Assembly: GCF_000236905.1 (NCBI RefSeq)
Contig: NC_016531.1
Span: 434,001 to 498,000 of the forward strand
Origin: Tetrapisispora phaffii CBS 4417
Lineage: Eukaryota > Ascomycota > Saccharomycetes > Saccharomycetales > Saccharomycetaceae
Direction of reading: 5' to 3'
DNA length: 64,000 nt
Positions 13,463 to 50,296 of the stretch are shown here, in pieces. The notes below the pieces were generated by a model. That model saw only the letters and a list, made by a program, of their open reading frames with translations. It searched no databases and was not told the DNA's origin. Positions within the stretch are counted from its first letter, which is position 1, and every line of letters begins with the position of its first letter. The translations under genes and the position numbers were made by a program.

Positions 13463-13954
13463 TCATCCTCTAGTAATCCTGTTAGCTTCTAAAATACAAT
13501 GTTCAATCCTACTTGGAATATTTGGAACATTTTTGGAAACTAGTTCCGGGTCTATTGAGTACACATCTGCAAATAGGATCAAATCATTTGCTGTTACATT
13601 GTTTTCTAAATTTTGCAAATACTTATCTGCTGCAACTTCCATCTGTAACTCAGACTGCATATCTTCCTTATTACCAAATTCTTTATGACATAAATTATCA
13701 AACTTTTTTACAAACCTCTCATATTCTTCATCTTCTATGCCATGATAGTCGTTTATCAAGTATCTTAAAATTGCGTTTGGTTCGTAAAGACACACCGTGT
13801 CACTCATAAGTCTTGGTATTTGACAGTCTTCATCCATCTCTATTTCAAAATCTCTATTGTTATATTCAACCCCCAATAAAAGCTTTAGGTTATTTGCCAA
13901 TTTTAAAAGATTAGTGTCATGTTTATTATGATCAAATGATAATTGAAACGACAT
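13463..13954 (-). CDS. Free-standing N-terminal GST-like domain of methionyl-tRNA synthetase (catalytic part absent)
   Basis: The 163-residue product aligns from its first residue with the N-terminal domain of yeast cytosolic MetRS (Mes1). Shared blocks are MSFxxSFD, LANNLK, NAILRY and DLILFAxVY, then an IPSRI/LPSK-like segment. It ends almost exactly where the GST-like domain of Mes1 ends (about residue 160). No catalytic sequence (HIGH, KMSKS, zinc knuckle) follows, because only 130 bp separate its stop from IKI1. In S. cerevisiae this domain of Mes1 binds the tRNA cofactor Arc1. The gene sits at the ancestral MES1 place, near HAS1 and YGR266W. It has an ATG, an intact frame and a clean stop, which argues for a functional domain-only protein. 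A decaying duplicate is the alternative. Confidence 0.85.
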   Translation of the reverse strand: MSFQLSFDHNKHDTNLLKLANNLKLLLGVEYNNRDFEIEMDEDCQIPRLMSDTVCLYEPNAILRYLINDYHGIEDEEYERFVKKFDNLCHKEFGNKEDMQSELQMEVAADKYLQNLENNVTANDLILFADVYSIDPELVSKNVPNIPSRIEHCILEANRITRG

Positions 13955-14304
13955 AATTTAAGCAGAAAAATCAGTTCAGTACTCAGTATTGATTATCTTT
14001 TATTGATGTTAGTTAATTGTATTCCAGGCATATAAATGAAAGAAGACACCATTTTATATACTAGGGTTCTTAAATACATTAATTAAATGAACCTCAAAAG
14101 TGACGCTATATTATCCTTTAAAATTATAGAGACACTCAATATAATTTAGTATTTCATTTATTGTAATATAATATACAGACTAATTGTAAACATCTAGTTT
14201 TACATATGATATTAGATATACGGTGTATCAAGATGTCAGAATTTTATTAATTAAGTCAATGCTGAAATCGGATAATTTATAATATTAACAATTATCAAAT
14301 CTCT
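13955..14304. other. Intergenic: promoter of MES1-like gene and HAS1 3' flank
   Basis: This 350-bp AT-rich stretch shows no recognisable RNA gene, no remnant of a MetRS catalytic domain, and no strong promoter motif. Confidence 0.4.
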
Positions 14305-16592: not shown

Positions 16593-18689
16593 ATGGATAA
16601 CGTAAAACGGACCTGGTTTGATGAGTGGGATACAAACAAATTGTATCAGGAGATGGTGGAGAATTGCAATGATTGTGTTAATCCTTCTCCTGTGCTTTCA
16701 AAGAATTTACAAGATGGTATTGTGTGTGGTCCAATTCTGAAGTTCCTCGATGTTGATTATGGAACTAATCAATTTCGTGGGTCTATTATGATAATCACTA
16801 AGAATCATTCTATCGCCGAAGATGGCAATATTACAATTGAATTCATACAAGGTCCTTCTAAACAATCAGCTACTGCGCAAGATGCATCATTTACAAATGG
16901 GACATTGGAAAGTCACTTGTTTCATACCGATAGATTACTGACTGATGTTTATAGATTTTATCGTTACGATTTATCATTGAAAATGCATCCTGAATGTGAG
17001 ACTATGGTGAGATATTCTGTTAACAACGAATTTAAAGATTATTATCGTTTTTACATTCCTTCATCCGAGACAAACTTCAATAGCATTGCATATTCATGCA
17101 ATGGGTTTTCACTTTCTGTAGACACTAGAGTATTTGAAGGTTCGCTATGGTTCAATGTCCTTAATGAACACTCAAAAATTCATTATAATGTAATGCTTGG
17201 TGGCGGCGACCAAATATACTCTGATCAAATCAAACTGTACTGTCCTCCTGTCAAAGAATGGGTAGAATCAAAGGATCCTATCAAGAAGTATAACTTCAAA
17301 GTAGATGAAAATGTAATGACACAGTTAAGGGAATTTTATTTATCGGAGTACATCAATTGGTATGGCTTTGGCCATTGGAAAGGTTCCACTGCCAATTCGA
17401 AAACAACCCAAAAACTGTTTTATGTTGCAATGGCTTGCATCCCCTCCATAAACATGTGGGATGATCACGATATTATTGACGGTTTTGGCTCTTATTCCGA
17501 CACCTTCATGAAAACAGACATTTTCTCCAGTATTGGTAAAGTGGCCTACGAATACTACATGTTATTTCAACAACAAGTTAATAGTCTAGGAGACGTTGAC
17601 AATGAGCGTTATCTGGAGGATAGATCATGGATCCTTGGTGCAACACCAGGGAAATTTATCACCGAAAAGGCTCATTCTATTTTCACAAGATTGGGTCCTG
17701 ATGTATCTCTGTTAAGTGTCGATTGTCGTACTGAAAGGCGGCTATCAACAATCTTAACTACTGAAAGTTATGACTTAATATTTAAAAGACTAGAGGAGGA
17801 AGTTCAACGAAAGAAAATCTCACACTTGCTAATCATGCTAGGTATCCCGATTGCATATCCAAGATTAGTGTGGCTTGAATGGCTATTTTCATCTACATTA
17901 TTCAAACCCTTGAAGTGGTTGAGTAAGAAAGGGTACTTTATGCCTGGATTAGTGAACGAGTTTAACGGCGATGTGGAGTTACTGGACGATATGAACGATC
18001 ATTGGTGTGCCAAACACCACAAAGCCGAAAGAAACATGTTAGTTTCCCGATTACAGGATTTTGGGGCCAAGCACGGGACCAGAATCACTATTCTATCCGG
18101 GGATGTCCATTTGGCCTCTATTGGCCGCTTCAGAAGGTCTGATTCAGTCGATAAGAACAGCAAAGAGGACCCGAGGATGATTGCGAACATCATCAGCAGT
18201 GCTATCACCAACACGCCGCCGCCGGATGGCATGATCAAACTGCTGCAAAAGAAGAACAATAAGAGACATAAATTCGATTATAAGACAATTGAAGACGCAG
18301 TGCCTATCTTCGGGCATGAGTCGGACGACGCAAATGCAAAGAGAACGCACGACTGTTTCTACAACAATAGAAACTGGTCTGACATCATCCCGACAAAGAA
18401 CGCCCTTGGGAATCCATACCTGAACAACAAGTTTCACTTACAGTTAGGCAAGTATGCTGTTCCAGGCAAAATCACCACCAGCGGGTTCCAATACAGGGAT
18501 GGCTTAGCCAGCAGAGGCAACTCCATTCCTTACGAAATCACCGAGCGTGGTTTGATCGGGACCATTCACGTCGAGAAAGACACCGCCAACAAGAACAGCG
18601 ACACCTCTTGCTACTCCATGCCTATCCCGGAACTGACCGTATCTGGTGCAAAGTTGTCGCACAGCGGCATGAAGCATATGCCGCTGTGA
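16593..18689 (+). CDS. YGR266W: PhoD-like metallophosphatase-domain protein, orthologue of S. cerevisiae YGR266W
   Basis: The 698-residue product (701 in S. cerevisiae) has PhoD-type metal-binding blocks: GGGDQIYSDQ near residue 210, MWDDHDIIDGFGSY near 290, and LSGDVHLASIGRF near 505. A hydrophobic stretch around LVWLEWLFSS lies near 430. S. cerevisiae YGR266W has been found at the mitochondrial outer membrane and plasma membrane; its substrate is unknown, and I infer only a phosphatase or phosphodiesterase fold. The start is the ATG at 16593; an upstream in-frame GTG at 16572 is not a credible start. The last ~600 bp become markedly GC-rich, continuous with the GC-rich DNA downstream. HAS1 and TDA1 flank it, interleaving YMR genes with a YGR gene. 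Confidence 0.88.
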   Translation: MDNVKRTWFDEWDTNKLYQEMVENCNDCVNPSPVLSKNLQDGIVCGPILKFLDVDYGTNQFRGSIMIITKNHSIAEDGNITIEFIQGPSKQSATAQDASFTNGTLESHLFHTDRLLTDVYRFYRYDLSLKMHPECETMVRYSVNNEFKDYYRFYIPSSETNFNSIAYSCNGFSLSVDTRVFEGSLWFNVLNEHSKIHYNVMLGGGDQIYSDQIKLYCPPVKEWVESKDPIKKYNFKVDENVMTQLREFYLSEYINWYGFGHWKGSTANSKTTQKLFYVAMACIPSINMWDDHDIIDGFGSYSDTFMKTDIFSSIGKVAYEYYMLFQQQVNSLGDVDNERYLEDRSWILGATPGKFITEKAHSIFTRLGPDVSLLSVDCRTERRLSTILTTESYDLIFKRLEEEVQRKKISHLLIMLGIPIAYPRLVWLEWLFSSTLFKPLKWLSKKGYFMPGLVNEFNGDVELLDDMNDHWCAKHHKAERNMLVSRLQDFGAKHGTRITILSGDVHLASIGRFRRSDSVDKNSKEDPRMIANIISSAITNTPPPDGMIKLLQKKNNKRHKFDYKTIEDAVPIFGHESDDANAKRTHDCFYNNRNWSDIIPTKNALGNPYLNNKFHLQLGKYAVPGKITTSGFQYRDGLASRGNSIPYEITERGLIGTIHVEKDTANKNSDTSCYSMPIPELTVSGAKLSHSGMKHMPL

Positions 18690-19555
18690 GCACACCTACT
18701 AACGCTGGCTTTCACGCAACGCAACTACGGGTCTGTGTGTTTGTTCGACGCTGTGTCATGTTGTCATTAGGTTGCCATTGTCCTCTTCCTCGAGAACAGA
18801 GACGGCAGCGGGGAAACTCAGTGGCGGGTTTTTCTGGCCCAGGCGTCGCCGAAATGTCGCAGTAACACCGCGCACCAACGGTTTTTCCGCTCCCGCATCG
18901 TTCTCTTCTGTCGCGGCTGCCCCAGCAGGTCTCTGCACGGAGACATTTGTCATGTATCCCGATCGGGCACGCCTGGGATGCGGTCTTCCGACGTCATGCT
19001 CCGGCTGTGTGCGCGCGCTGCACTGTGCTGGACCGCTGGTGTCCACCGCCGAAGAACAGCCACCGCACAACGACTGCTGTTCGAAAACGGGAGTTTCGCA
19101 GTTTCGCAACATCGTGTCCTGCGCAATCGCACAGCGATTGTTTTTCCCGCACTCAGAACCTGTTTTCCTATTCCGACACTCAGCACAGCGCTTGTGCGGC
19201 ACGTTCACTGCTGCGTCCTCCCCGATCTCATTATGCCTCGCAAAAAAGAAAGGAAAAACAGGAATTTGAAGCGTCCGGATGCTTTCGTAAGTTTGCCCTT
19301 CTTTGCTACTTCGCAAATTTCAGTTGCTTCCAACACCCTCGACTGTATAGTTTGATAGCAAACCATTTTTATTTTTCAGCCAACAGTAATAGTGAAATAT
19401 ATATACACACATACATATATAAATGAGGTACTTCTCTCTAGTATTAAAGTATCGAGATCGTATGGGTGACACTCGCCGTATCGCTCCAGTATATATATTA
19501 ACACATACATCTGTTTCTACTCAGTACTCAGGGCGCACCGCATAAGCGTTCGAGA
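18690..19555. other. GC-rich intergenic island upstream of TDA1
   Basis: This 866-bp stretch is far richer in G+C than its surroundings. Hand counts give 36 of 60 for 18781-18840 and 42 of 60 for 18961-19020; composition returns to AT-rich after about 19270. Long open frames occur in several frames on both strands, as expected of GC-rich DNA, but none has recognisable protein content. A 7-bp perfect stem (CAATCGC / GCGATTG, 3-nt loop) lies at 19124-19140. The 3' part (19270-19555) looks like an ordinary AT-rich promoter for TDA1. Confidence 0.7.
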
Positions 19556-23069: not shown

Positions 23070-23768
23070 TTAAAAGGTCACGTGGGCATTCGAGTTAGGC
23101 TGGATGATCCTGCCAACACCTCCACACAGATGACATAGGTCTGAGTCGAGGAAGAATCTGATTCTTCCTGTGCCTCTGCAATTCCCACAAATAACACCTC
23201 CTAGTCGTGGGTCACCAGGGCGGACAATCAGTGGCTTCGGTGCGGTTGGTGTGATGACCGGCCTCTGATAATGGTTTGTGTAGTAACCTTGTGTAGTCAG
23301 AGGTGATGAAACGTTGTTTTGACGTGAAAACTTTCTCCAACAGGTTTTGCAAGACTTGCCATTTTTCAGTTTGAAACCTGTGTTGCAACATTTTTGGCAG
23401 TAGTAACCAGGCGGGTACACCCAAGGCAGTTTTGATGTCGGTTGACTTGGTGGTTGTTGCTGCGACGATGAGCTTCCATTCGATGGCTTCGCTGGTTTCG
23501 ATGAGCTGTGAGTAGTTTTTCCTGGTTTGCTGGGATTTGAATGACCAGATAAATGCGCTGGTCTGTTGGGATGCTGGGGCGGTCTGGACGAGCTTTGAGG
23601 CTGGGGCGGTCTGGACGAGCTTTGAGGCTGGGGCGGTCTGGACGAGCTTTGAGGCTGGGGCGGTCTGGACGAGCTTTGAGACTGAGAGCCCTGGCCTGTA
23701 AGCTTGTCTTCATTTAAAACATCTTGGTAGCTAGGCAACGAGTCGTCAGGGATATCGTCATTATTCAT
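23070..23768 (-). CDS. HUA1: Hua1 zinc-finger adaptor (Rsp5/Sla1-linked endocytosis protein)
   Basis: The 232-residue product begins MNNDDIPDDSLPSYQDVLNE; its PSY segment is a PY-like motif also present in S. cerevisiae Hua1 (198 aa). A Pro/Ser/Gln-rich linker contains four 9-residue repeats. The C-terminal half carries CxxC pairs of the DnaJ zinc-finger type (CQKC...CKTC, CGNCRGTGR, CHLCGGVGR), separated by PGDPRLGGVICG as in Hua1. Hua1 is a cytoplasmic protein associated with actin-patch and ubiquitin-dependent trafficking factors. I use the ATG at 23768; the longer frame starts at a TTG. HUA1 lies between FOL2 and YTA7 as in YGR267C-YGR270W. Confidence 0.93.
   Translation of the reverse strand: MNNDDIPDDSLPSYQDVLNEDKLTGQGSQSQSSSRPPQPQSSSRPPQPQSSSRPPQPQSSSRPPQHPNRPAHLSGHSNPSKPGKTTHSSSKPAKPSNGSSSSQQQPPSQPTSKLPWVYPPGYYCQKCCNTGFKLKNGKSCKTCWRKFSRQNNVSSPLTTQGYYTNHYQRPVITPTAPKPLIVRPGDPRLGGVICGNCRGTGRIRFFLDSDLCHLCGGVGRIIQPNSNAHVTF
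23581..23688. repeat. 27-bp coding minisatellite in HUA1, four copies
   Basis: Units of 27 bp begin at 23581, 23608, 23635 and 23662. The first three are identical and the fourth diverges at its end. Each encodes nine residues (PQPQSSSRP register) in the Pro-rich linker of Hua1, so copy-number change keeps the frame. Confidence 0.92.
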
Positions 23769-49156: not shown

Positions 49157-50296
49157 TTAATCTGAGAAGATACCCCAGTATTTTTCAACACCGTAGTCAC
49201 CATCAGCTTTCCATAAATCATTGTAAGCATTGAATAATATGGTAGAAGAACCACATGATTTTTTGATAGAAGCAATGGCAGCTTCCTGGTTTGCTTTGGA
49301 TGGGACAGCTGATCCGTATGTGTTACCTTGAGATGGCCAACCTGATTCAACAATTAAAACATCCTTGTCACCGCCACAAGCATTCCAGACGTTTTGAATT
49401 TGACTTAAGACCCAAGGACCAGCGGCTTCTGCAGCAGTGTAATAATCGAAATAGGCATGTGCGTTAACTGCAATGTAATCAGAATATTGGCATAAAGTTG
49501 GGTTGTTGATAACTGCAATGAAGGTGTCGACAGAAACAACTGGACCAGTGTAACCAGCGGCGGTTAAAGCAGTTTTACCAGTTGAAACGTAAGAAGAAAC
49601 TTGATCAACAGTAGCTTCGCCACCATTAACTAACTCGTTACCAATCGAGACGGTGTAAATATCGTCCCAAGAACCGTAAGATGAAACGGCATTAGCAATG
49701 GTTTTAACACCAGCTTCGATTTGATCCATGTAGTAAATACCTAGAAATAAAGTTTGGCTTGAAGATTTAGCTTGTAATGCATACTCAACTTGGTTACAAT
49801 CGACACCATATAGTCTGATGATTGAGAAGTCAGTTAAAAGAGCTAAATCAGAGGCAACTTCGGATTGACTTTTACAGCTACCGTCACTAGAGTATGGGGA
49901 ATAAGTGATACCTTTTGCACCACCTGCCGAAGCTGACGAAGATGAAGACGAAGATGCAGATGACGATGCAGATGAAGATGCAGATGAAGATGTAGATGAC
50001 GCAAAAGTGGATGATGAGGATTGTGAAGATGATGATGAAGTCGATGATTGTGCAACGGCGGCTTCTGAAGTGATGACAGTTTGGAAAGTTGTGGCAACTG
50101 AATTCACAGCAGCTTCTAGACCATACTCATTTCCTTCAATGATATCGATGGCCCTTTTTTCAGCATATGCGGCGGTGGTAGATGATACTGTCACAGCATC
50201 GGCAGGTATTCTCTCGTGATTATGATGTTGATTAGCAGGAGCAGCTGTGGCTAACGCTACCGATACTGTGGTATTTATAATTGAAGTTAAACGCAT
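49157..50296 (-). CDS. SCW10: Scw4/Scw10-type soluble cell-wall glucanase (GH17)
   Basis: The 379-residue product has a signal peptide (residues 1-19), a propeptide ending at Kex2-type KR (47-48), and a Ser-rich tract (~83-125) likely O-mannosylated. A glycoside hydrolase family 17 domain extends to the end. Its acid/base Glu is in SIGNELVNGG and its nucleophile Glu in VIVESGWPSQG. Such proteins remodel beta-1,3-glucan in the wall, often covalently attached. Length is like S. cerevisiae Scw10 (389 aa). The S. cerevisiae duplicates SCW10 (YMR305C) and SCW4 (YGR279C) both come from this ancestral place, so the name is a choice. Confidence 0.92.
   Translation of the reverse strand: MRLTSIINTTVSVALATAAPANQHHNHERIPADAVTVSSTTAAYAEKRAIDIIEGNEYGLEAAVNSVATTFQTVITSEAAVAQSSTSSSSSQSSSSTFASSTSSSASSSASSSASSSSSSSASAGGAKGITYSPYSSDGSCKSQSEVASDLALLTDFSIIRLYGVDCNQVEYALQAKSSSQTLFLGIYYMDQIEAGVKTIANAVSSYGSWDDIYTVSIGNELVNGGEATVDQVSSYVSTGKTALTAAGYTGPVVSVDTFIAVINNPTLCQYSDYIAVNAHAYFDYYTAAEAAGPWVLSQIQNVWNACGGDKDVLIVESGWPSQGNTYGSAVPSKANQEAAIASIKKSCGSSTILFNAYNDLWKADGDYGVEKYWGIFSD

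Follow-up and report, generated by a model that had tools for sequence, protein, structure and literature searches.

How does a yeast come to carry the N-terminal domain of methionyl-tRNA synthetase (MetRS) as a gene of its own, and which of its proteins then occupies the MetRS place on Arc1? The question is raised by a minus-strand open reading frame (ORF), hereafter the solo ORF, in the 64-kb stretch of Tetrapisispora phaffii DNA analysed here (the window). The frame at 13463–13954 runs uninterrupted from ATG to TGA, intact as reported in the initial annotation, and encodes a product of 163 residues. Its existence as a solo MetRS-N ORF is confirmed. The parts of the gene referred to below are as follows.

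13463–13954, minus strand: solo MetRS-N (GST-like) protein, 163 residues and TGA stop (Pfam and 2hsn match).
13736–13954, minus strand: thioredoxin-like half, residues 1–73, ending in helix 2 (30/72 identical to S. cerevisiae Mes1).
Residues 59–71 of the solo protein, minus strand: predicted helix 2 (low-confidence model).
13598–13738, minus strand: segment from helix 2 to helix 5 (helices 3 and 4), residues 73–119, 47 residues.
13580–13597, minus strand: helix 5 N-capping box VTANDL (S/T-x-x-D; box as defined in an excerpt of PMC10813123).
13466–13579, minus strand: remainder of helix 5 and helices 6–7, to the domain end (2hsn match, low-confidence model).
14053–14060, minus strand: TATATAAA, match to the TATA-box consensus and promoter candidate, 106 bases upstream of the ATG.

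The identity of the domain is directly supported by profile and structure-based matches. The solo protein scores 73.3 bits against the Pfam profile MetRS-N (PF09635; E 3.3e-20, cut-off 24.8) and covers profile positions 2–121 of 121, so that the whole domain belongs to this family. The match to PDB 2hsn_A, the GST-like N-terminal domain of yeast Mes1, pairs residues 1–156 with residues 1–156 (E 3.2e-24), and 55 of the 153 aligned residues are identical to the S. cerevisiae Mes1 domain. Homology to Mes1 from the first methionine onwards, as originally proposed, is thereby established. Three other Pfam families match below threshold (E 0.026 to 0.063): the GST N-terminal family (E 0.04, 14.7 bits, cut-off 20.9) fits the presumed fold of the protein, and TPR_AP5Z1 and SMP_2 look like chance matches. 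The 2hsn alignment and the box VTANDL supply the elements of a GST-like docking domain, namely a thioredoxin-like half, helices 3–7 and the N-capping box. Helix order and borders are a rough map taken from an AlphaFold model of the protein alone, computed from a single sequence (mean pLDDT 40.2, pTM 0.28), in which helices are placed at residues 75–93 and 102–115. Because the mean pLDDT is only about 40, the fold assignment rests on sequence homology.

The product also stops at the domain end and lacks catalytic sequence, in agreement with the initial annotation. It terminates two residues past the last helix of the low-confidence model, which agrees with the domain end; at the same place the full-length MES1 of contig C1, described below, continues into a VPRD linker. 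Neither the class I catalytic domain (PF09334) nor an anticodon-binding domain is present among the four Pfam matches of the solo protein, which is therefore not itself a MetRS. A tblastn search of the 64-kb window with full MES1 as query gave four matches and no catalytic remnant: residues 1–139 align at the solo ORF (E 5e-8), and the remaining three matches have E values of 0.79 or worse. Upstream of the ORF, a pattern scan for six motifs, made without a chance control, yielded the TATA-box candidate listed above and no match to the other five. An A is found at position -3 of the ORF start.

The neighbours of the solo ORF in the window are, according to Pfam, a DEAD-box helicase with an SPB4-type extension, a PhoD_2 phosphatase and Elongator Iki1. 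We take these to be the counterparts of HAS1, YGR266W and IKI1 of S. cerevisiae. The proposal that the solo ORF lies at the ancestral MES1 position agrees with the S. cerevisiae gene order. In the genome as a whole (12,115,070 bases, 17 contigs), MetRS-N has two matches, the solo ORF and a full-length MES1 on C1. No third copy is found among these matches, and the presence of the full-length gene speaks against an assembly error in which MES1 would be missing.

The sister region was analysed by comparing 31 ORFs of the window with 29 ORFs of C1:1205000-1262000, each of at least 120 residues. This revealed three pairs with E values of 1e-4 or lower, whose order and orientation agree between the two regions. 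They comprise the solo ORF and MES1 (32% identity over 153 residues), a pair of protein kinases (45% over 349 residues) and the pair formed by window 49157–50296 and C1 1258626–1259735. No further matches were found between the 31 window ORFs and the 29 C1 ORFs, as expected for duplicated regions after gene loss. Because two further duplicate pairs are collinear with them, the solo ORF and C1 MES1 are best read as copies derived from the whole-genome duplication. Both the origin of the solo domain in that duplication and the full-length MES1 predicted on the sister chromosome, in a collinear region, are in this way supported. The third pair is far closer than the other two (78% over 254 residues), perhaps as a result of gene conversion or strong constraint.

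C1 MES1 encodes 724 residues (L003:6153-8327, minus strand) and is the strongest of the 10 PF09334 matches in the genome (521.6 bits); its catalytic part is intact (Pfam, 519.5 bits). The second such enzyme, on C10 (278.9 bits), is presumably the mitochondrial MetRS, and the remaining eight matches, at 77.7 bits or less, were taken for other class I synthetases. The catalytic part of C1 MES1 matches the cytoplasmic MetRS 5gl7 over residues 158–722. In the assembly its N-terminal domain is truncated internally: it matches only positions 1–65 of the 121 of the MetRS-N profile and only residues 1–75 of 2hsn. From helix 2 to helix 5 it has a stretch of 13 residues, which could hardly accommodate helices 3 and 4; the corresponding stretch numbers 45 residues in S. 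cerevisiae Mes1, and in the solo protein it numbers 47. An intron hiding the missing helices is not supported, because the frame continues through the 13-residue stretch. At the helix 5 N-capping box, the solo protein (VTANDL) keeps the capping Asp of S. cerevisiae (LTTTDL), which is absent from C1 MES1 (VTASKL). The thioredoxin half of C1 MES1 is identical to that of S. cerevisiae at 36 of 73 residues. In the helical half, 25/80 aligned residues of the solo protein and 15/49 of C1 MES1 are identical to S. cerevisiae; the fraction is the same, and the copies therefore differ by the missing segment and not by identity. The losses appear complementary in these alignments, the solo copy keeping the docking domain and the C1 copy keeping the enzyme minus the docking helices.

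The significance of these losses depends on the surfaces used for docking. According to passages of PMC10813123, GST-like domains present two binding surfaces: helices 2 and 3 build interface 1, and interface 2 consists of helix 7 together with the helix 4–5 loop. The same passages assign the contact of S. cerevisiae Arc1 with MetRS to interface 1 and that with GluRS to interface 2. The Arc1–MetRS geometry in S. cerevisiae is described in an excerpt of PMC4394549 as resembling the canonical GST dimer. Since helix 3 of interface 1 is missing, C1 MetRS is left without one of the two docking helices, and it likely no longer docks through the classical interface 1. Binding could survive the absence of the box by itself, or a smaller domain: interface 1 is still used to model most apicomplexan MetRS, which have no N-capping box, and EF1-beta has a small GST-like domain that functions with three helices (both in passages of PMC10813123). 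By analogy with these cases, Arc1 binding might persist in the remnant of C1 MES1.

The rest of the complex looks conserved, since the docking domains of ARC1 and GluRS are both retained. The search for ARC1 envisaged at the outset was successful: the gene is one of two tRNA_bind matches in the genome, its N-domain covers 122 of 122 residues of 2hrk_B, and its tRNA-binding part is full. GluRS carries its Arc1-binding domain (E 5.4e-77 against 2hrk_A). A separate observation concerns C6, where L008:1240-1881 (minus strand) is an ORF of 213 residues with a tRNA_bind (EMAPII-like) domain (60.4 bits). It looks like a second tRNA-binding protein besides Arc1, with an N-terminus that resembles, by eye, a mitochondrial signal.

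We lean slightly towards a partition of docking and catalysis between the two MES1 copies, in which the solo protein holds the MetRS face of Arc1 and MetRS itself is untethered. In the order of events that we infer, the two copies would have decayed in complementary fashion after the yeast whole-genome duplication. The window copy would have lost its catalytic and anticodon-binding parts, leaving a free GST-like docking domain, and in the C1 copy the enzyme would have been retained and helices 3 and 4 lost from the docking domain attached to it. The solo domain would take, at interface 1, the face of Arc1 vacated by MetRS; the Arc1–GluRS complex would stay assembled around a non-catalytic partner, and MetRS would no longer be tethered to Arc1 through the classical GST interface. 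Arc1 docking by the solo domain is plausible. The more general statement that gene fission rewired the complex, turning the MetRS docking domain into a free adaptor or place-holder acting in trans on Arc1 and depriving the enzyme of its docking helices, seems to us evenly balanced between true and false. The initial annotation had also suggested that the solo domain could compete with Mes1 for Arc1. This idea is weakened by the loss, not foreseen there, of helices 3 and 4 and of the capping Asp from C1 MES1: a division of labour is likelier than competition, given that docking of the enzyme through the classical interface has probably ceased.

The main rival explanation, which we regard as unlikely, is that the solo domain bridges Arc1 and the half-domain of C1 MetRS, so that the complex would be restored in trans in a manner analogous to p18/AIMP3. 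The C1 enzyme has kept its thioredoxin half (the 36/73 identities given above) although the docking helices are gone, a point in favour of this reading; that half could, however, be retained for the folding of the enzyme alone. An excerpt of PMC4394549 describes p18 as a free GST-like protein that promotes the association of MetRS with its complex, but for S. cerevisiae MetRS the passages of PMC10813123 describe only interface 1.

Less likely again, and in our opinion rather doubtful, is a solo domain that has left the Arc1 complex for a new partner, or a lineage in which MetRS and Arc1 have simply been uncoupled. In helix 3 of the solo protein, Arg80, Lys83 and Lys84 align with Phe82, Ala85 and Ser86 of S. 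cerevisiae, so that charged residues stand in place of small or hydrophobic ones. Such a changed surface could weaken or retarget docking, and counts against unchanged Arc1 binding by the solo protein. In Arc1, we equated one stretch with helix 3 and another with helix 7, which faces GluRS, setting the borders ourselves; the former is only averagely conserved (10/18, against 72/122 for the whole N-domain) and less well kept than the latter (13/17). Against a departure from Arc1, the solo protein keeps the N-capping box, the full segment from helix 2 to helix 5 and 30/72 and 25/80 residues of the two halves of the Mes1 domain. Partition of docking and catalysis remains our preferred reading.

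The frame of the solo ORF, its codon use and its conservation argue for selection. The solo frame has a codon score of 0.291, which falls mid-range among 73 equally long chunks (mean 0.302, s.d. 0.100); these chunks come from 19 genes of the window that we chose and that also served as the training set. The other five frames of the ORF score from -0.213 to 0.029, and the best of 1000 shuffles reaches 0.219. The GC content at the three codon positions is 0.44, 0.24 and 0.27, compared with 0.225 in two flanking intergenic stretches. Neutral drift was simulated in 1000 runs with a GC of 0.225 or 0.34, survival being defined as an open frame with ATG and indels not being counted. At 0.05 substitutions per site, 21.7 to 28.3% of the runs survive; at 0.1, 4.5% (GC 0.225) and 8.9% (GC 0.34); at 0.2, 0% and 1.3%, respectively. 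When indels are included at an assumed rate, no run is both indel-free and open at 0.1 substitutions per site. With its open frame, gene-like codon score and improbable survival under long drift, the ORF does not have the features of a pseudogene.

Synonymous sites between the solo ORF and C1 MES1 are saturated. For 72 and 121 codons, respectively, the NG86 method gives dN of 0.54 and 0.64, dS being undefined, and maximum likelihood gives dN of 0.57 and 0.66 with dS of 16 and 18, values that signify saturation. In the thioredoxin half, 23 of the 36 columns common to C1 MES1 and S. cerevisiae are kept in the solo protein. Private changes in this half number 13 in the solo protein, 7 in C1 MES1 and 8 in S. 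cerevisiae; the difference between 13 and 7 (p 0.26) indicates no clear acceleration, the counts being a rough guide. These results fit constraint on the solo frame through most of the time since the duplication, and a recent loss of constraint would be compatible with them as well. It is improbable, however, that a full-length MES1 duplicate was only recently cut by a deletion and that its N-terminal stump is drifting, for although short neutral drift can leave a frame open at the rates given above for 0.05 substitutions per site, the solo ORF ends at the domain border with a gene-like codon score, an A at -3, no clear acceleration in its thioredoxin half and no remnant of the lost catalytic region, and the C1 copy has undergone the complementary loss.

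The N-terminal domain of S. cerevisiae Mes1 resembles the solo protein in comprising the whole domain from the first methionine, with the N-capping box and the segment that joins helices 2 and 5, but it is fused to the enzyme, whereas the solo protein is free-standing. Gene fission through duplication and complementary degeneration is reportedly exemplified by monkey king of Drosophila, where a whole gene gave way to a pair of partial genes that complement each other, as proposed here for MES1; unlike that case, the MES1 split would separate a scaffold-docking domain from an essential enzyme. In the animal multi-synthetase complex, p18/AIMP3 is presented in part of PMC4394549 as a small, free, GST-like and MetRS-linked protein. 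By description the solo protein is likewise small, free and GST-like, but it derives from MetRS itself. Diverging synthetase duplicates are known from S. cerevisiae and Vanderwaltozyma polyspora, where a second glycyl-tRNA synthetase occurs (excerpt of PMC9437257; see also PMC3306390). That enzyme, GlyRS2, retains some catalytic activity, whereas the solo copy retains no catalytic sequence. No description of such a solo MetRS-N protein was recognised in the parts of the open-licence literature covered.

As stated in an excerpt of PMC4394549, MetRS and GluRS of S. cerevisiae associate with Arc1, which stimulates charging and directs the location of both enzymes. If the partition is true, it would be a natural experiment separating MetRS catalysis from Arc1 tethering, and separate genes for docking and catalysis would directly test the need of MetRS for its tether. 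Such a yeast would show what holds Arc1 and GluRS together and how duplication splits a domain fusion, and would be a clear case of duplicate retention through complementary loss.

Two other features of the window were observed. At 18500–19300, in the interval that separates the PhoD_2 gene from the kinase gene, the G+C content rises to a peak of up to 0.625 in 200-base windows, against a mean of 0.347 for the whole stretch. This peak, perhaps a recombination-linked stretch, carries four ORFs that overlap and have 125 to 186 residues, three on the plus and one on the minus strand. On the minus strand at 23070–23768, an ORF of 232 residues has tandem repeats of the SSSRPPQPQ type at its start.
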